From positions 12,980,519 to 13,044,518 of the forward strand of contig CM034604.1 of NCBI GenBank assembly GCA_020091685.1: a DNA stretch of 64,000 nucleotides, read 5' to 3'. The notes below the pieces were generated by a model, which ran no database searches, had not been told where the DNA came from, and saw nothing but the letters and a program-made list of their open reading frames with translations. Of this stretch, positions 20,936 through 43,500 are shown piece by piece. This DNA is from Lutjanus erythropterus. Lineage: Eukaryota > Chordata > Actinopteri > Lutjaniformes > Lutjanidae. Position 1 is the stretch's first letter, and every line of letters starts with the position of its first letter. Made by a program: the position numbers and the translations under genes.

Positions 20936-23900
20936 ATGAGACTTATTTTTGTTGTTGTTGCAGCTTTGCTGACAGGTAGGTGAAGAGAACAGAGTGGTGG
21001 TGGGGTTTCTTCTTACAGAGTGCTGCAACTTAGAGATCAGCAGTTCAGGACCATGGACAGAGGCACTTTAATACACGCAGTCCTCCTGCAATGCCACATT
21101 TGACTCGTTTTAACATAAATCCTTTTTTTCTTATGCAGAAAATCTGGCACTTCCAGTGGTAAAAGAAGGACAGAGAGAGGATGTGGTATGAGTTTATTGC
21201 GCACTCTAATTTCTAAGTTTAAAACAGCAGCTGTGCAGAAATTCAAGCCAGAAAAGAAGCAGAGGGCAGCATATTCAGGTTATTTGTTTATTGCAGGTAA
21301 AACGATGCTTGGTTGAAGTTCTGTCCAAAGCTCTCTCCAAACCGGACTCCCAACTGGATCAAGAATGCAAAGACATCCTCCAAGCAGGTTTGTAGCAGAA
21401 GCAGATTTTTCAGTGTGCATGGACATAGTAAGTATGAGGGCATTGTTGATGCAGTAATCCTTCAGTGTCAGGCCAGGTTTAATCAAGAATATCTTGGCAA
21501 CCAGTTGATGACAAAAATAGAACTACTAAGATCATTTACAGTTTCATGCCACTTCTTCAGAGACACAAGAGGCTGAGAGATATTCCCATCAATACTGTAC
21601 AGTACAGTAGCTTTTATAGGGCTGAGCTGTAAGAATTGCCACTTGCCCAGGGCAAGTAAAATGCCATGCCCGACTTGTAAATCTAGCAACTTACTTGCAT
21701 GATGGGACAGGTGGTAAAAAAGAAAAAAAAAGGTTAAAAGCATTGTTTCACAGTTAACAAATCCATTACTGAGCAGAAGGAGGAGGAACTGTCATACCAT
21801 TTTCGTTGTGCATGAATGTTTCTTGCTTTGCATCTGTGACACACTGTGTCCTTGTTCTGATTAATTTACTTAAATGGATTAAACAGAACAATTATTGAAT
21901 AGGAGCTAGAAAAAACTGACTTTGTGCAAGTAGATTTCTGATACACTGCCCAAATGAGCAAGTGGGAAAAAATCCAAGTGGAAAAAAAAATCCATTTAAT
22001 TAAACCTAAATATCAGAAAGCAGATGGCCAAATCATCAAATACAAGATAGGATTAGACCTAAAGCTTGAATGAAACCAAACTAACCAAATAAGAAGTCTA
22101 CCATGACCTATCCCTACGAGCTAAATATCAAACAAATGATTGAACAAATCATTAAATACAAGATTGGATTTGACTTATAGGCTGAAATCCAATAAGAAAG
22201 CCATCGTAACCTGTACCTAAGAGCTAAATATCAAACAACTGCTTGACCAAATCATCAAATACAAGATGGGATTAGACACAAAGCCTAAACTCCAATAAGA
22301 AATCCATCATAACCAGTCCCTAAGAGCTAAATATCAGACAAATGATTGACCAACTCATTATATACAAGATTGGATTTGACTTAAAGGCTGAAGTCCAATA
22401 AGAAATTCATCATAACCCATTCCTAAGAGCTATATTAAATGGATCTTAACACCTCTTTTGATCTTTCTTGTGTTGTGTCATAGGGGTTAAACATGCCCCA
22501 CTGGACAAGAAGACTGCGGAGGGGATAGCAGCTCATGGAGAGGTGGTCAAAGGTCATCCTGAGGAGCCTGAGGCGAAGGGAGCAGATGTCAAAGACATCG
22601 AGGCTCTTCTGAAATCCGTGGAAGCAAAAAGAGAAACCCTAGAAGACGAGCGCAGCCAAGAATCCTGGAGTCTGGGTGATGATAAGGAGAAGAGACACGA
22701 GAACGAAGTGGAAGAAGAGCGGGAGAAGAGGAGCGGCTGGAGGCCTGGAAGATACCACCAACACAAAAGCAAACGAGGAGAGGAGGAAGACGAAGACAAC
22801 GAGCGCAGTCAGGAGAGTTGGGGGTTAGAGAAGAGATCAGGAGATGAAGGAGAAGGTGAAGACAAAGAGAAAAGGAACTGGAGGCCTGGAAGATACCACC
22901 AGAAAAAACACAAACGAGATGAGGAACCTCTGGGAGAGGAGGGGGACGAGCCAGAGGAAGAACGTAGTCAAGAGTACTGGGATATAGACAAAAGGCATTG
23001 GGATGCTGATGATGAGAGAGACAAAAGGGAATGGAGGGCTGGAAGGTACCATCAGAGGAGACACAAGCGCGATGAAGAGCTCACAGAAGAAGCCAGAGAC
23101 GAGCCCAATGAGGAACGCAGCCAGGAATCATGGGGTCTTGACGACGAGAGAAACAAGAGAGACTGGAAGCCCGGCAGGTACCACCAAAGGAGACACAAAC
23201 GTGGTGATGAGGACGAAGACAGCGATCGCAGCCAGGAGTATTGGGGTCTTGACGACGAAAGAGACAAGAGGGACTGGAGGGCTGGAAGATACCACCAGAG
23301 GAGACACAAGCGTGATGAGGAGCTCTCAGAGGATGGCAGGGAAGAGCCCGATGAAGAACGCAGCCAGGAATCATGGGACATTGGTACTGGACCAGATAAG
23401 AGAGACTGGAAGCCCGGCAGATACCACCAGAGGAGACACAAACGTGGTGATGAGGACGAAGATGGGGATCGCAGCCAGGAGTACTGGGGTCTTGATGATG
23501 AAAGAGAAAAGAGGGACTGGAGGGCTGGAAGATACCACCAGAGGAGACACAAGCGTGATGAGGAGCTCTCAGAGGATGGCAGGGAAGAGCCCGATGAAGA
23601 ACGCAGCCAGGAATCATGGGACATTGGTACTGGACGAGATAAGAGAGACTGGAAGCCCGGCAGGTACCACCAGAGGAGACACAAACGTGGTGATGAGGAT
23701 GAAGATGGGGATCGCAGCCAGGAGTATTGGGGTCTTGACGACGAAAGAGACAAGAGGGACTGGAGGGCTGGAAGATACCACCAGAGGAGACACAAGCGTG
23801 ATGAGGAGCTCTCAGAGGATGGCAGGGAAGAGCCCGATGAAGAACGCAGCCAGGAATCATGGGACATTGGTACTGGACGAGATAAGAGAGACTGGAAGCC

Positions 23901-26900
23901 CGGCAGGTACCACCAGAGGAGACACAAACGTGGTGATGAGGATGAAGATGGGGATCGCAGCCAGGAGTATTGGGGTCTTGACGACGAAAGAGACAAGAGG
24001 GACTGGAGGGCTGGAAGATACCACCAGAGGAGACACAAGCGTGATGAGGAGCTCTCAGAGGATGGCAGGGAAGAGCCCGATGAAGAACGCAGCCAGGAAT
24101 CATGGGACATTGGTACTGGACGAGACAAGAGAGATTGGAGGGCCGGCAGGTACCACCAGAGGAGACACAAACGTGGTGAGGAGGATGAAGATGGCGATCG
24201 CAGCCAGGAATACTGGGGTCTTGACAATGAGAAAGACAAAAGGGACTGGAGGGCCGGCAGATACCATCAGAGGAGACACAAGCGTGATGAGGAGCTCTCA
24301 GAGGAAGCCAGGGAAGAACCAGAGGAAGAACGCAGCCAGGAATATTGGGATTTTGATACTGGACGCGACAAGAGAGAGTGGAGGGCCGGCAGGTACCACC
24401 AGAGGAGACACAAGCGTGATGAGGAGCTTTCGGAGGAAGCCAGGGAAGAACCAGAGGAAGAACGCAGCCAGGAATATTGGGATTTTGATACTGGACGAGA
24501 CAAGAGAGAGTGGAGGGCCGGCAGGTACCACCAGAGGAGACACAAACGTGGTGAGGAGCTCTCAGAGGAGGCGGACGGGGAGCGCAGCCAGGAGTCCTGG
24601 GGCTTGGACAAAAGAAGTGGAAAAGAAGAGGAAGAAATAGAAAAGCACAAATCTAGGTACTTCTATTTTTCATCATATCAAACAACTTCCACTCTTTAAT
24701 TGTTTGTTTGTACTCTGCACCCTGGAGCACAAAACACAGCTCAGCTCAATATTTCACGTCTCCAGTCAACAGGGATCAAAACAAATTTGTGCATAAGAAA
24801 TGAACAAATCCCTTAATCAGTGTACATGTGCTGGCATAAAAAATAATACTAAAACACCATCTATTTGGGGCTCTTTTTCAGGTACCTGGCAGAGAAACGC
24901 AATCCCTGGATTTTCAGAGGCTACTATCATCCTGCATGGTATAAAAGGGATTCAGATGAGCACACTGCAACCTCAAACAAGGTAGGCATTATCCTATGTC
25001 TAATAATATAGTTGCAAATTGTTTGTGGCTTTAGTTTCGACACTTTGACTATATTTAACCAAAAAGATTAATTTAGATTAATCTAGAGTTTGGCAAAACT
25101 AGGTTTACAATGAATAAATCCAGATTTTAAATTAAGAAGAACTCTGTTGTACACTTAAAACAAATCTCAAATGAGTTAATCCAGGTTTAGTGATGTATAC
25201 CAAAATTTAATAGTTTAAGCAATATGAAGATGCTTGCTTACCCAAATTAAAATAAATAATAAATCTGAGTGCTGTCGGTACCCAGTAAATATAAAAGAGG
25301 GTAGAAGTCTGTTAACTTTTGGCTGCTCTGTGTTTAAGTTGACAAAACGCTACATTATTTGCTAGCTAGCAACATGTTTTTTAAAAGGTTATATTGTTTG
25401 CTGGCTAGCTAAAAAATTAACAAAACATTACAGTTTGCTAGTTAGCTAAAACATTTCAAAAAAAGTGATACATTATTTGCTTGCCAAATAAGAAAGTTAG
25501 GTAGTCTAATTCAATTCATGAATTAATGCATGATGCATCATGAATTCCTGTTGCTCACTATTAACAAATGATGAAATCACTATGACTTTATGTGATAAAC
25601 TCACACTTAGATCATCAGTTAAGGAATGTTACTTCAGTTACTTCATACATTAATTGATATACATCAAGTTAACTGTATTTCAGTTACATGAAAGTTTATT
25701 TATGTAATTGTATTTATATCTAGTTTGATTAAAATCAGAGCTCTGTATTTTTAGGAGAACAGGAACTGTTCGGCTTTCAGAGAGACTAAGTAAATACATG
25801 GGTCTGAAATAAACCTTTATGCCACTGCAATGCAGCTAATTTGATCACGGATCAGTTAATTATTTGTTAGTGGCGAGCAGAAGGAATTCATGACATATCC
25901 TGCATTAATTCATGGATTAAATAAGTCATGCATCAGTTCCGTATTTGATTTGTAGCCTTATTGTAGTGTTATCAAGTTTGAATTATTTTGATCTTCAGTT
26001 TAGACATAATGTGATTCTGTCTTTAATGTGTCCAGATGGATGAACTGGCCAAGTTGCTGAGCTATAAGATAAACCAGCTAGCTAACCACTCTAATCAAGA
26101 GGAGGCAAAGAGGAGCACACACCAGAAAGCACTTACAGCACAGGAGGTAAAGACAAAAAAAAAAAAAAACTTTTATGGCAGATGTGAGAATGTATTTGCT
26201 GTCATTCACTTTGTTGAACCTGTAACTATACAGCTGAACTGGAAAATACAGCTTGTTATCTACAGTATAGACTTTTATTTACTGTGCAACACAAATCTCA
26301 TAGATCTTCACTGTGTGGCAGCCAGGATTCAGGCTGAAAAAAAGAAGCAATTAAAAAAAAACATGTAGATCTTAAAAACTACAGTCCAAGAATCTACCAT
26401 GAAACACACTAGATATATTTGTAATTTTCATGCTTCTGCTGGTGTTTCTATAAAAAAAAAAATCTTTCCACTTATATTCAGCTGACCCAGTAAAGCCATG
26501 AGGCACAACAAGTACCTCCACCACACTGTTTCACTGGGGGAAAAGGCTGCCATGCTCATTATGGAAATCTCTACTCTACATGGAGATGTCAGGATTTAGC
26601 CTTCAGAAGCACAGAGGATCAGTGAATATGCATCTGTGCAACTGCACATCAAGAGCTGTCCCTCATAAGCATGTCCCAAGTACATGGAGACAAAATGGAG
26701 CGAGCATATTCATGAGCAGTGACTCGTTCCTCAACTCTGGCACACGTCAAATGAGTTTTTATTGCCCTTTCAGCACTTGTTCTCTCTGCTTGTTTGTCCC
26801 CTTTCTTCTGTTTGCACTTTCCATACCAGCTTTTTATGACTGCTACAGTAATCACACCAAGAAGCTCATGATTACAGCCTCCCAGAGCAATCAGTCATAA

Positions 26901-27338
26901 TATACTCATTGAAAAGAGAGCAACGGCCTGCAGAGACATACTTTGAAGTAGAAAAACAAATCAGGGGAGAGGAGGTGTAGTGATTTCTCAGTCCTAACAC
27001 ACCACGACTCAAGGCATAATAAGAGAATGTTTAACCTAAATTACCAATTCAGCATATTTACGCACATTTTGGAGCCGGCATGGGAAAATAAGAGTAATTT
27101 ATGGCAGTGTAATCCTGCTTTCTATCTCATAAGAGAAAAAACTGTTCAGACATCATGAAAGACAGTTCAGATGTTGTGATGTCAAAAAGCAGACTGTAAA
27201 TGTATTTATCTCTAAATGTATTCAGGTGCTGACATGTAAATGTTCCATGTTTTTCAGGAGAAAGAGCTGGAGAACCTAGCAGCGATGGACCTGGAGCTGC
27301 AGAAAATCGCTGCCAAGCTGCATGACAACAGTGCATAA
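20936..27338 (+). CDS. chgb: Chromogranin B (secretogranin-1), 7 coding exons, 880 aa
   Basis: Exons: 20936-20975, 21139-21185, 21297-21387, 22484-24656, 24882-24981, 26036-26146, 27258-27338. All junctions are GT-AG, phases match, and the sum is 2643 bp. The product is an acidic granin of dense-core secretory granules. Residues 1-17 are a signal peptide. Cys33 and Cys53 form the N-terminal disulfide loop (RCLVEVLSKALSKP between them). Residues 61-783 (exon 4) are a giant acidic region with about 15 tandem GRYHQ boxes and many KR/RR/KK convertase sites. Exon 5 encodes EKRNPWIFRGYYHPAWYKR. The C-terminus (ELENLAAMDLELQKIA) is the CHGB hallmark that corresponds to the secretolytin/CCB region and separates it from chromogranin A. 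Human CHGB is 677 aa, so this protein is about 200 residues longer because of the array. Convergent neighbour trmt6 gives the same synteny as in human. The start is the first ATG before a hydrophobic leader. Confidence 0.95.
22004..22436. repeat. 103-bp minisatellite, about four copies, chgb intron 3
   Basis: The word gagctaaatatca recurs at 22,118, 22,221 and 22,324, and gagcta again at 22,427, giving an exact 103-bp period. A more diverged first copy starts at about 22,004. Each unit holds 'tacaagat', a 'ccaataagaa' word and a 'cataac' word. The array ends about 50 bp before the exon 4 acceptor at 22,483/22,484. Confidence 0.92.
22645..24610 (+). repeat. Coding tandem array in chgb exon 4 with 111- and 132-bp units and a 243-bp higher-order period
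   Basis: Two unit types alternate. The short one (37 aa, 111 bp) runs from GDEDEDGDRSQEYWGLDDE to GRYHQRRHKR. The long one (44 aa, 132 bp) runs from DEELSEDGREEP through RSQESWDIGTG to DWKPGRYHQRRHKR. The long+short pair forms an 81-aa, 243-bp period starting at 23,071, 23,314, 23,557, 23,800 and 24,043, five exact steps without an indel. Before it are diverged single units. After 24,286 only long units follow, the next at 24,418 (132-bp step). In total 15 GRYHQ boxes and 16 RSQE(S/Y)W boxes are visible. The middle copies are almost identical at the DNA level, indicating recent duplication or gene conversion. Confidence 0.95.
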
Positions 27339-31200: not shown

Positions 31201-34200
31201 CTGCGGCTGCCAGCTTCTTCCGCTTCTCCTCCAGCTTCACCTTTCTTTCCTGAGCCTAAAAAAAACAAAACAAAAAATAACGTCAGGATGTTCACGACAT
31301 CTTTCAGATACTTGAAACATTTTAAACGGTACACATTTGCAGTGAAAATTTAAATCTTGGTGTCAAAATTTAGAATAACACAAACATACACAATCACTAA
31401 ATTTCATCGGACTGTCTATAAGTACGTTTAATTAAAATAGAACTTAACACTAGCTAACAATGCTTAAATAAACTCTATAACCTCATAGTTACCTGTATAG
31501 GTTAACATTATAACTGTAACAAGGTACATTATTTAGGCATTTTCAGTGGTGAAACTGGGAAAGTTTGCACAAAGTACACAAAGTAGCGCATTTTTAAATT
31601 AATTTAACTTTTTGACGATCTGATGGGGAAAAAAATAAACATGTTGAATATTGGATCCAATAATAGGCCAGGCCTGATAATCGATCCACCCCTAATAAAA
31701 AGTAATGACAGAAAAACAAAAATCAGGCATGTTCTTTGTTGGGTTAGTAAGTAGTCAACACACTTTGGCTTCTTTGCGTCTTTCTTTCTCTTCTTTCTCC
31801 TGGTCATGGCCACCATCAGCGCCACTGCTCGTCTCCATGCTCTCTTCCTCTGGACTGCCCTGCTGTTCTGCCTCAGGCTGCTTCTCCTCCGCAGCCACGT
31901 TGGACTGCTTTGAATCTGTAATGTTGAAGGAGATAATCTATATCAGAGGCAGGTTGTGATAAATTATTCATTTTTTATACTGCTGAATATAAATTGTTTT
32001 ATTTTCTAAATGTATGGATTAATCTTATTCTATGTGTAATTTATAAAGGTAAAAAGAATAATGTTTATGACTACAGAGGAATACATTTCATTTGATATCA
32101 TTTGTGAAGTTGTAACTTGGGATTTCAGCACAAGCTTGTAGCTATTCTGTTTCATCTAAAAACAACAAGGCTATAAACATCTTGGAGTGATTTATTTTAA
32201 AAAGAAAAGGCGAGCTCTACCAGCGCTGGGATCTTTGGCAGTGGTGTCCAGAGTGCCTGCCAGCAGAGCATTGACATGGCAGATGGGAAACCCATGCAGC
32301 ATATCGTGAAAATGTGCAGGAAATCCAAAGCTCTCCACACCCGCCCGTACAGGCTCACCTCCTGGGTACATTTGGATCACTGAGCCGTAGCCTGGATGAG
32401 GAGGAAACAGAGGGTAATTATAACAAAGGGCTGAGAAAAGGAAAGTGCAGAAAGAAAATACATCTTTTAGATAGAAAAGAAACAAGTGTACAGGACTGAC
32501 ATACCGCCCATTCTTTCCATGACGGCTCCGAGCACGAGGCCAGCACACGTCTCAAACACCAAAACTTTACTGCCGGCGTGGATGTTTCCCAGAGTCAGCA
32601 TCTGGGCGAGTGTGTCATACCGCAGGTGGCTGCATCACACAAAAACACACGCATCATACACTCATCTTTTTCTGCTCCACAAACTTTCACACTTTCTGTT
32701 AATCCATGTGCTGACTCACCAGATCTTCCCTGGTTCCCGGCCATGGTACATCATCGCCAAGATGCGGCAAGACGGTTTTAGAATGGTCACAGTGTTTTCG
32801 TACCTGGAAAAGCAGAAAATGGGAACCAACTGATAACACTAATTACAGTGCAACACATTATTTTAAGTCTGAAAGAGACCGTGGGTGTATTATAAGAAGG
32901 GACTCACTTCTTCTTTTTCTTCTTGATGTACTTATCCTGGGCATACTCAGTCTTATCTTTGAATGTTGAGCTGTTATCTATAAGCTGCCGGATGATTTCC
33001 TGTGGAAAACATATTGTCACTACAATTTATCTGAAAATTTAAAAGATAAGGTTCCCATGACATGACAAAAACCAACAAATGCAGAGGCCCGTTTCTCAAT
33101 ACTCATCCCCAAGCTCACTGTTTCCTGAGTGTTAATGGCACCAGGACTGTTTTATGGCGCTCACGTTCATTGTATTAAAAGAGAATTTCAACAGTGCAGC
33201 TCTTTTTTTGTTAACAGCTGTTTTTTTTGACAAGAATGGATGTCTACAGTGCAGACGAACAAGCTAAACTATGTCACAGTTTGACTACACAAATAATATT
33301 CATTAGTGGAATCTTTTCATTGTTGGTTTTTCATGGAATTTGATGACAATAAAAAAAAAAAACATTTATATATTGCCAGCATTACTCTACAATAAAAAGA
33401 CCCAACAACTGGAGGTACTGTGATACTTTCCCATTTATGTATGTAATGGCAAGATGACTGATGTACCTGACCCTTCAGACCTTGCTCTTTGAGCGCCTCA
33501 ATGTCATCCCTAGTCAGTTTCTGGGATTTCCCATCGTCCACAATATTTCTGTTGTCTGTGCCAACTTCCTTTGTATCTGGGAAAACACATAAAGAGGATT
33601 ACTCAAGGTGAAAATGAAAGCATAACAGGCTCTCAGCAGTCTTTTACATGTCCATGAACAGCAAAAAAATTGTCTACCATTCCTGAGCAAAAGGCAGAAA
33701 TTTGTCTTCGCTTGCATGTGCAAATACAACATTAAAAAACATACATAAAGACATAATAAAAGTTACATTAAAAGGTGCACAAGGTACTCGATGGTCAGGA
33801 CTGAAACATGCTTAGCAGGGAGTAGCAGGCTGGCTTCAAAAAGTGGCTGTCCTGATTCTCTGGGTCTCAAGACAGCCCTGTACTATGCTGACATTATGCT
33901 GCTCCGTGTTTGTTTGTTTTTAACATCAGTGATTGTCTGGACAATCCCTCTCACCCAGCGAACAACTTTTTAAATGTCCTTCCTTCTCAAAAGACTAAGA
34001 AGTATTTAAAACCAGAACAAGATTCAAGAAGTGCTCCATCCTGGAGCTGCCCACCTCCTTAACATTTCAAACTAGAGCTGAAGCTAACGATTATAAAGAA
34101 AAAAGGAAAAAAGAAAAAAGTCTTTTGTGTAATGATTACTTTCATTATCAATTTGTCTTTTGATCTTTTTTTTTTCATTAATCGATTAGATGTTTGGCTC

Positions 34201-40504: not shown

Positions 40505-43500
40505 TCATTCTTGGCCTCCAGTAAGTTTATGGAACAGGTCTTCGTCTAGCGTCTCGTTCTGGTCTTTAGATCTTGTGGAGAGGAAGATGTAGCCGCCTAT
40601 GAACTCGTGGACCACCTTGCAGTCACAGCTCAAACAGCAGAAGGCTATTGACACGTTCTGATCGAACTCTATGGTCACCTGGAATTAAACACAAGGCATT
40701 CATGTCTCTGTGGGCAATACCCCAAATAAATGCTTCCTTCACTGAAGAGACAAAGTTATAATATGCGGTACAACTACCCCTCACCTGTCTGATCTCCCAG
40801 TTAACGTTCCACTGCTTCATGTTGGCGAACCTCCATGTGGTGACAGGCAGACCCGTGGACATGTCGATACGAATCAGACGGTTGTACGAGATCCCCAGAA
40901 TCTCATCCTTCTTACTGCCTTTGAATCTGAAACAAAAGGATAAAGGGATTACCTCTTTAATTATCACTAAAAATGATACTGTCATGTTCAAATTTGAGGT
41001 TTTTCTGGTATTCAAATGCATCTTGGATGAGCTGATCACAAGTAAACAGCTTTAAGTACATGAGCAGGGAAGTGACAATGCATCTCAAGTGACCACGGGT
41101 GATCTGATTTCACTTCCCTGCTCTTTTGCAACTAAACACTTGGGCTATTTTGTCAGCTGAATGTCCATTACTGTCCATTTGGCCATTCAATATAAAGATT
41201 TAACTATTCATTCCTTTTTTTTTTTCAGTTCAGCATCACACTAAACCCATCTAACAGCCTTCATGATCCTCATGTTCTACCTGTGCTGTCATCAGCGCAA
41301 CAAGATAGATGCTTCGTGTTGCATTAAGATTTTATAACTCAACTATGAGCAGGACACACTATTTTCTCTGACTGCATGTAAATGATGAAGATGATAAAGA
41401 AAGGCATTACTCAGAGCAAGAAAAAGTGTGCAGTCCAATCAGCTCTCTCCGGGCCTCTTCCCAGCAACAAAATGTTTTTTACAAGGAAAGAAACAACTTA
41501 ATGTTTTGAATTTAATGCCAAGTTTACAAGAAGGGATGAGTAATTAAGAATTTTCAGAAGACGTTTCACTTCCCAGCTCTATATGCAAATCAACACGTTC
41601 GCAAAATGTGTTGCTGTTTTTCACCAGTGGCCCAGTAGTAGCCAACACACTGAGACTAACGGACACAATAATTTTTCCACAAAAATGAGAACAAATTTAC
41701 AAGAAGGCACATACTATTAAGAATTAGTCAGGTAATGTTTCGCAAAGTTTATAAAGCATCTTCTCACTCAACGGTTTTCAAAATTGCATGATTTTCTAAG
41801 GGAGTGCGTTGACAAACATCTGCTGCTTATCTTGGCCGTTACAAAAGTCCACGCAATTTGCATCACACTGAACCAAGGCAGTCCTTAAATGTGGCAGAGG
41901 ACACATTCATGTACACACTGCTAAAAGAATGTGGTCCTAGATCACCTCTGAATATGGACTGAGCAATCAGATCTCAATGCATCTTGGGTGCTTGCACATC
42001 TCTACTTCTTAATTGTGATTGAATCACCCAAGACACATGTTAATACCAGGTGTAAACGGGCTCAGTGTCACCAGTTGTACATGTATTACACCTAAATGTG
42101 TTCACTGTACCTGACAATGTAGTAGTTTATACCAAACTCTGGAAGCGACTGCCAGGCCTGGATGAAGCGCATCTTTGCCTCCATTAGGGACAGCCGTGCT
42201 ATGTTCTGATGAGCCTCCAGGATACGTGCTGTAAGCTTTCAACAATCACCAGAGGCAGATTCAATAAATACGTTTAGTGATGATAGCAGTGATGTAATTC
42301 TGATCGCTGTTGGCAAAGTCAATTATATTGCACGTAGCCCTTAAACAGACCTGTTTGGTCTTGTGCTTTTTGGCATAGCGTGGAGAAACAAAACATTCAG
42401 CATTCATCTCCATAGCATCGAGGTCAGGAGCTGACTGGCCAGGAGGGGGCGCCAGGCTCTTCATTTGCAGGAAGGACTGGATGTTCTTCACTTCTGACTT
42501 ATAGGAGCTGTAGGCCATTGTCTTGCCCTTGGAGGCCAGGATACATGCAGCTTTCCACTTGGCATACTGTGTTTCCTGCAGCAGAGGACAAGTACAGGAC
42601 GCTGAGACTTACAATATCAACCCTAAATTTATATACTGTGCAATTGTGGAAAAACGGTCATAAGCATGGGGACGAAGACGTGGACCTTACATTGTCACAT
42701 CGGATGTACACCTCATTCATTCCATCTGCAACTGGGAGCAGGAGCTTGATGCCAAACTTCTTGTCTGTCACATTGACATCAGGGACCACCTCACAACCTG
42801 AAGAGGAAAAAATAGTAGTGAATTTAACAACAGAAGGAGAGCAGCAAGATACAAAAAATCTGCTAACATTACCAATGAATAAAACTGTTACATTTGTTAT
42901 TTACTCATTTTCCCTTGACCAAAAGTAATAGAGTTTATTTTAGACTAGATTATAGATTATATATTGCATGCATAACATATTTTTTCATATTTTTTTCTCT
43001 GTTTTGTAGCCTTTGTAGAGAATAGCTCATGCTCTTAGGTAATAAAGACATAATCACACACCATGGGAATGCTTTAATTGGGAGTTATTAATCCTCAGCA
43101 ACACAGAACACATTAAGAAGTGTTTCATTTTTCACTGACCTCGTAGGTGAAACTGCTCTATGGGTTCTCCAAAGGAGGCCTCCTTGTTCTTGTAGTAGGA
43201 GATGGTGGTGTCCTTGAACACAAACCAGTACTCTTTGTACGGCCGCAATGTTAGTCTTTTGGGCCTGATTCAAGACAGCAAAAAAGAAAGACAAATCGTT
43301 GTTTTTGCAATGTAGTTTATGACCTTATCTAAGTAAAGGTCTGAAGAATAAGACATTTTTTTCAAAATAGCACAGGTCACTTATTCAGAGGAGTGAGGAG
43401 CTCATCAGAAGGTTTTTCCCCTTTAATCCATTATCTGATCATCTGGAGGCCATTGTTAAGGGAGATGAGTGTGTATAATAAATTTGTATGAAGAACATTT

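Follow-up and report, generated by a model that had tools for sequence, protein, structure and literature searches.

Constrained, KR-bracketed GRYHQ peptide cassettes in the predicted chromogranin B gene of Lutjanus erythropterus

We analyzed a stretch of 64,000 nucleotides from the lutjanid fish Lutjanus erythropterus (GenBank assembly GCA_020091685.1, contig CM034604.1, positions 12,980,519 to 13,044,518 of the forward strand), hereafter called the window, which contains a gene for chromogranin B, chgb. Positions given below are those of the window, and the features lie on its plus strand unless stated otherwise. The large fourth coding exon of the gene encodes 15 copies of the pentapeptide GRYHQ within a tandem array, which an earlier inspection of the letters (the sequence-only reading) had described as an exact repeat of 243 bp that was either recently expanded or maintained by conversion. 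What the present analysis adds to that description is that the repeat units, as judged from their translation and substitution pattern, are constrained peptide cassettes, each bracketed by pairs of lysine and arginine (KR).

The chgb model is sequence based and was obtained by splice-site prediction; it consists of seven coding exons separated by GT-AG introns in one closed frame, with a predicted product of 880 amino acids (aa) and 15 GRYHQ boxes, the same figures that had been given before. Exon 1 (20936-20975) encodes the putative signal peptide in a hydrophobic N-terminus and is followed by exon 2 (21139-21185) and exon 3 (21297-21387), the translation of which contains two cysteines 20 residues apart, as in the granin-type disulfide loop; this loop is named as a sorting signal of CHGB in PMC6238609 (here, as for the other papers cited, we refer to excerpts of the source). 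Exon 4 (22484-24656, 2173 bp) holds all 15 GRYHQ boxes together with 16 acidic cores of the form RSQE[SY]W. The C-terminal part of the protein is encoded by exon 5 (24882-24981), exon 6 (26036-26146, for which the search of its own genome reported this sole match) and exon 7 (27258-27338), which together match the Pfam family Granin. Exon 5 also encodes NPWIFRGYYHPAWY (24901-24942), flanked by KR on both sides, which, judged by eye, may be a degenerate single box, ancestral or otherwise related to GRYHQ. We considered retention of intron 4 (24657-24881) because an isoform of cichlid CHGB with a retained intron, which holds a peptide identified by mass spectrometry (MS), has been reported (PMC4992253); in the present gene, retention would add about 13 residues before a stop.

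The sequence-only reading had named the gene chgb, and we accept this identity on the strength of the seven-exon model, the C-terminal match to Granin and the exons of a second gene downstream. The C-terminal 99 aa match Granin (PF01271) with an E value of 6.9e-8 and 32.3 bits (curated cut-off 25), and the joined N- and C-terminal pieces give 31.2 bits. Downstream lies a trmt6-type gene on the minus strand, recognized by three exon matches to Gcd10p (PF04189) at 32497-33568, the only such matches reported in the genome; TRMT6 is presumably a neighbour of human CHGB, and genes may intervene between the two here. Searches of the genome, in which the best candidates were scored, report the chgb locus only (nine matches for the repeat, two for the C-terminus and three for the N-terminus), so that chgb is apparently single-copy and the array was found on no paralogue. 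A Pfam match to ZirS_C was rejected, as it reached 18 bits against a cut-off of 26 in a compositionally biased stretch, and a sequence search of the PDB with the C-terminal piece returned no meaningful match. The same contig carries, about 2.4 Mb from chgb, a second granin exon (L006, G000:C14:15402688-15405792) that matches positions 7-41 of Granin with 31 bits and is perhaps a candidate for chga.

The core of the array comprises five in-register periods of 243 bp at 23071-24285, each combining a unit of 132 bp with one of 111 bp. The claimed alternation of the two units and the five starts (23071, 23314, 23557, 23800 and 24043) are borne out, in frame and with zero indels, and Tandem Repeats Finder (TRF) reports a period of 243 bp with 5.8 copies at 23017-24426 (93% matches, 0% indels, score 2321). 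TRF, the spacing of the boxes and the in-register periods rule out a chance origin of the repeat. The word "exact" applies to the length of the period but not to its sequence, since pairwise identity among the ten pairs of periods ranges from 84.0% (period 1 versus period 5) to 100%. The one identical pair is that of periods 3 and 4 (243/243), which lies within an exact run of 374 bp, the longest at offset 243. Likewise, the near identity of the central copies at synonymous positions holds for periods 3 and 4, but the other nine pairs differ at 5-16 synonymous codons. The five periods contain ten of the boxes, but the GRYHQ module runs further, with two boxes downstream and three older, diverged ones upstream (22726-23070, at spacings of 141, 153 and then 132 bp); over the whole series the spacing is, from 5' to 3', 141 and 153 bp, then alternately 132 and 111 bp, with two final intervals of 132 bp. 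Intron 3 contains a different tandem repeat of 103 bp (3.3 copies, 22088-22432), which ends about 50 bp before exon 4 and has one further partial match reported in the genome, adjacent upstream (22006-22070; the search skips common words).

A scan of the phase in 3-base steps locates the most homogeneous part of the array in four 243-bp copies at 23161-24132 (DWKPGRYHQ... to ...DKR), with starts at 23155, 23158 and 23161 in a tie (ends 24126-24132). These copies have a mean pairwise identity of 97.5% (range 95.9-99.6%), and the block is shifted by 84-90 bp relative to the earlier framing, since the sequence is older in the linker of period 1 and also in the later part of period 5. Period 1 differs at many of its codons 2-28 from the other four periods, and period 5 departs from them from about codon 28 onward; when period 1 is compared with periods 3 and 4, its 111-bp unit is 96.4% alike and its 132-bp unit just 82.6%. 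Synonymous divergence (dS) among the four copies spans 0.022-0.142 (46-47 synonymous sites each), and therefore only copies 3 and 4 appear to be very young. A unit of 132 bp was duplicated separately (24286-24417 and 24418-24549), its two copies showing four differences (97.0% identity), and TRF also reports a period of 132 bp at 24199-24569. Since the synonymous difference among the 15 boxes far exceeds that among the copies of the block, the GRYHQ module is, on sequence divergence, old and its 243-bp order young. The claim of recent expansion thus holds for part of the array and resolves into layers: an old module, the four-copy block of 243 bp and the separate duplication of 132 bp.

Each of the 15 boxes is preceded by KR and followed by it, one or two residues being allowed between KR and the W of the box. 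The pair directly after the Q of the pentapeptide is RR in 13 of 15 cases, HK in one and KK in one, a small hint that the cutting pair, beyond mere charge, may be what is kept at the edge of the box. The whole precursor contains 25 sites of the form RX[KR]R (13 RHKR, nine RDKR, two REKR and one RNKR). In the 405 aa of the array there are 18 such sites, as compared with a mean of 3.8 and a maximum of 12 in 2000 shuffles; this comparison is descriptive and falls short of a clean test because the shuffles take the sites as independent and the copies, having been duplicated jointly, are not. A granin-family frame of the same genome that matches Pfam Granin, which we label SCG2-like, contains 11 dibasic pairs in 420 aa but lacks RX[KR]R sites, as a control of one single frame. 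Cutting at KR is predicted to release 15 box peptides (six of DWRAGRYHQRRH, four of DWKPGRYHQRRH, three of EWRAGRYHQRRH and two that occur once each) and, within the array, acidic peptides 21 and 28 residues long. Eight of the acidic cores have Y and eight have S in the variable position of RSQE[SY]W. S-x-E and acidic-tyrosine contexts are those of secretory phosphorylation and sulfation, and the cores are suggested as candidate sites for these modifications.

The box peptide, on this evidence, is kept by purifying selection and is conserved beyond what the synonymous sites of the copies would lead one to expect. The pentapeptide is never altered among its 15 copies, the proportion of nonsynonymous differences (pN) being 0 and that of synonymous differences (pS) 0.456; over a wider box of 17 residues, pS is 0.444 and the ratio of nonsynonymous to synonymous divergence (dN/dS) 0.13. 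On a neighbour-joining tree (built on units of 57 bp), all eight parsimony changes within GRYHQ are synonymous, where 18-26% would be expected, an outcome with a chance of 1e-6 to 1.8e-5 under simple models. Homogenisation alone would be insufficient to explain the invariance of GRYHQ, because the boxes have kept their differences at synonymous sites.

The explanation that we consider probable from these sequence features is that a granin has been enlarged into a multi-copy peptide precursor, the acidic and basic blocks of which also suit condensation in secretory granules. The old module would be a basic peptide, [DEN]W[RK][AP]GRYHQRRH, alternating with an acidic one containing RSQE[SY]W and multiplied inside exon 4. 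Given the known specificities of furin, the prohormone convertases and carboxypeptidase E, the first two would cut the RXKR and KR sites in the trans-Golgi network and granules, and carboxypeptidase E would then trim the peptide ends, so that the products of each precursor could include acidic SQE[SY]W peptides and as many as 15 GRYHQ peptides of nearly the same sequence. In the uncut protein, the blocks of alternating charge (about -8, +5, -7 and +5) could aid condensation as granule matrix, together with the histidines, which titrate near pH 6; in the array 58% of the residues are charged, 20 of the 405 aa are His, and the net charge is -24.2 at pH 7.4 and -15.1 at pH 6.1. Mammalian CGB condenses at pH 6.1 through its disordered N-terminal domain (PMC9526250). 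Nine CHGB peptides have been identified by MS in the pituitary of a cichlid (PMC4992253), a precedent for peptides from CHGB and not specifically for GRYHQ. Unequal crossing-over, by which the peptide copies of multi-copy precursors most likely arise (PMC2575521), would alter the dose of peptide with the reading frame preserved, since whole cassettes are contained in a unit whose length is divisible by three.

Several points weigh against this explanation, besides the short units of the tree, the non-independence of the shuffled sites and the single control frame already mentioned. The acidic linker has a dN/dS of 0.18 (seven units), close to the low value for the box, and because the two are nearly equal selection is not restricted to the box. 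The variation in the pair beside KR comes from two diverged units of the 15. No amidation-type G[KR][KR] is present in the whole precursor; many receptor-acting peptides do carry amidation, which is common and not obligatory. Neither the full-length protein of 880 aa nor its N-terminal 121 aa matches Pfam Granin, which is recognized only in pieces bearing the C-terminus. Finally, the granin family is described as highly conserved across fish species in PMC7067429 (CHGB is unnamed in the excerpt), with which a fast-changing number of repeats may fit poorly; the same source attributes differences between assemblies in the number of repeated amino acids to probable error.

The array could instead be chiefly a polymer of the granule matrix, in which blocks of charge drive condensation and cargo retention and the cut peptides are by-products devoid of a signalling role. 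We regard this as rather unlikely, despite the charged fraction of 0.58, the sign-alternating blocks, the histidines and the shift in charge from pH 7.4 to 6.1 that it would readily accommodate, as well as the phase separation of CGB at pH 6.1 (PMC9526250). Charge alone leaves unexplained the KR pairs at 30 of 30 box edges and the GRYHQ in all 15 boxes, and mammalian CGB condenses via its N-terminal domain, such repeats being unmentioned in the excerpted text of that study. Matrix and peptide functions are in any case compatible, the former before cutting and the latter after. Less probable still is a selfish coding minisatellite, expanding by replication slippage or unequal crossing-over in a disordered segment where it is tolerated, the number of copies bringing no advantage. 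The homogeneous centre and diverged edges typical of tandem arrays, the two separate amplifications and the proximity of the non-coding 103-bp minisatellite in intron 3 are in keeping with such an origin; against it stands the strong amino-acid constraint across old copies in which synonymous change is free, an argument that bears on the sequence and not on the copy number. An assembly error, in which almost identical periods were falsely duplicated or merged so that the true copy number differs, is very improbable, for the identity of periods 3 and 4 inside the 374-bp run is the one feature inviting that suspicion and at most one period relies on fully identical sequence, whereas the other periods hold private differences and the 1.2-kb array sits in a contig of 38.25 Mb (937.6-Mb assembly, 444 contigs) within a window that has no N.

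The usual view of granins is that of matrix proteins from which peptides are also derived. With 15 constrained copies of one peptide between KR pairs, the chgb product makes it directly testable whether the matrix or the peptide is selected, and the array lends itself to dating how peptide copies multiplied within a vertebrate gene. A bolder version of the peptide-precursor explanation, which we hold to be doubtful, is that a fish lineage turned a matrix granin into a high-copy precursor of a peptide hormone, the dose of which would depend on how many 243-bp cassettes are present and might vary between individuals; if true, it would provide a vertebrate counterpart of the multi-copy neuropeptide genes of invertebrates. 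The importance of the array hinges on its distribution among teleosts and on release of the peptide.

Long open reading frames (ORFs) in other frames over the array, namely 22988-24640 (plus strand, 550 aa), 23052-24266 (minus strand, 404 aa) and 23081-24652 (minus strand, 523 aa), were rejected as genes; we read them as by-products of a unit that is stop-free and has a length divisible by three. In 500 random synonymous recodings of the unit, the three frames stayed open in 47.8%, 63.8% and 13.4% of the trials, the percentages for the minus frames not being assigned to particular minus-strand ORFs. No RNA gene reached Rfam gathering scores and no tRNA was predicted by a tool with its bacterial setting. 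Elsewhere in the window, exons resembling kindlin (fermt1) were recognized by eye on the minus strand at 40623-42608; in Pfam, 40623-41051 gives only weak matches below cut-off, including PTB with 14.4 bits (cut-off 22), and 42261-42608 gives none. Six neighbouring ORFs of the window have no Pfam match.

Among the papers listed in our searches of the open-access literature, a scope that leaves aside subscription papers, older granin reviews among them, no description of the array was found, and GRYHQ as a search term returned one paper, unrelated. Pattern matches in viral contigs (44) and prokaryote contigs (318) included none confirmed as relatives of the repeat. An anion-channel activity has been proposed for CHGB (PMC6238609, PMC10330821), the former with membrane-active helices and an alignment including zebrafish; the excerpts of both leave a teleost repeat unmentioned. 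The gene resembles chromogranin B, also called secretogranin I, in having a hydrophobic N-terminus (a putative signal peptide), a pair of cysteines that may form the N-terminal loop, an exon 4 that is long and acidic, a C-terminal match to Pfam Granin and a trmt6-type gene downstream, but differs in that exon 4 is here dominated by 15 KR-bracketed GRYHQ boxes and that our model has seven coding exons, unlike the five of the CGB scheme in PMC9526250. The array is also like the tandem units of spider silk genes (PMC3933166), which are homogenised within a coding region, but is short in comparison and has peptide-cutting sites in every unit. Multi-copy neuropeptide precursors are cut at dibasic sites between their copies. 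Such precursors (FMRFamide-like, allatostatin, enterin and metamorphosin; PMC2575521) resemble the present one in carrying many related peptides in one gene and often in one exon, with 24 to 37 copies in the invertebrate examples, up to nine in the flp genes of Caenorhabditis elegans and two to a few in vertebrates; unlike them, chgb of L. erythropterus lacks the amidation signal and presents its 15 copies within a vertebrate-type granin.

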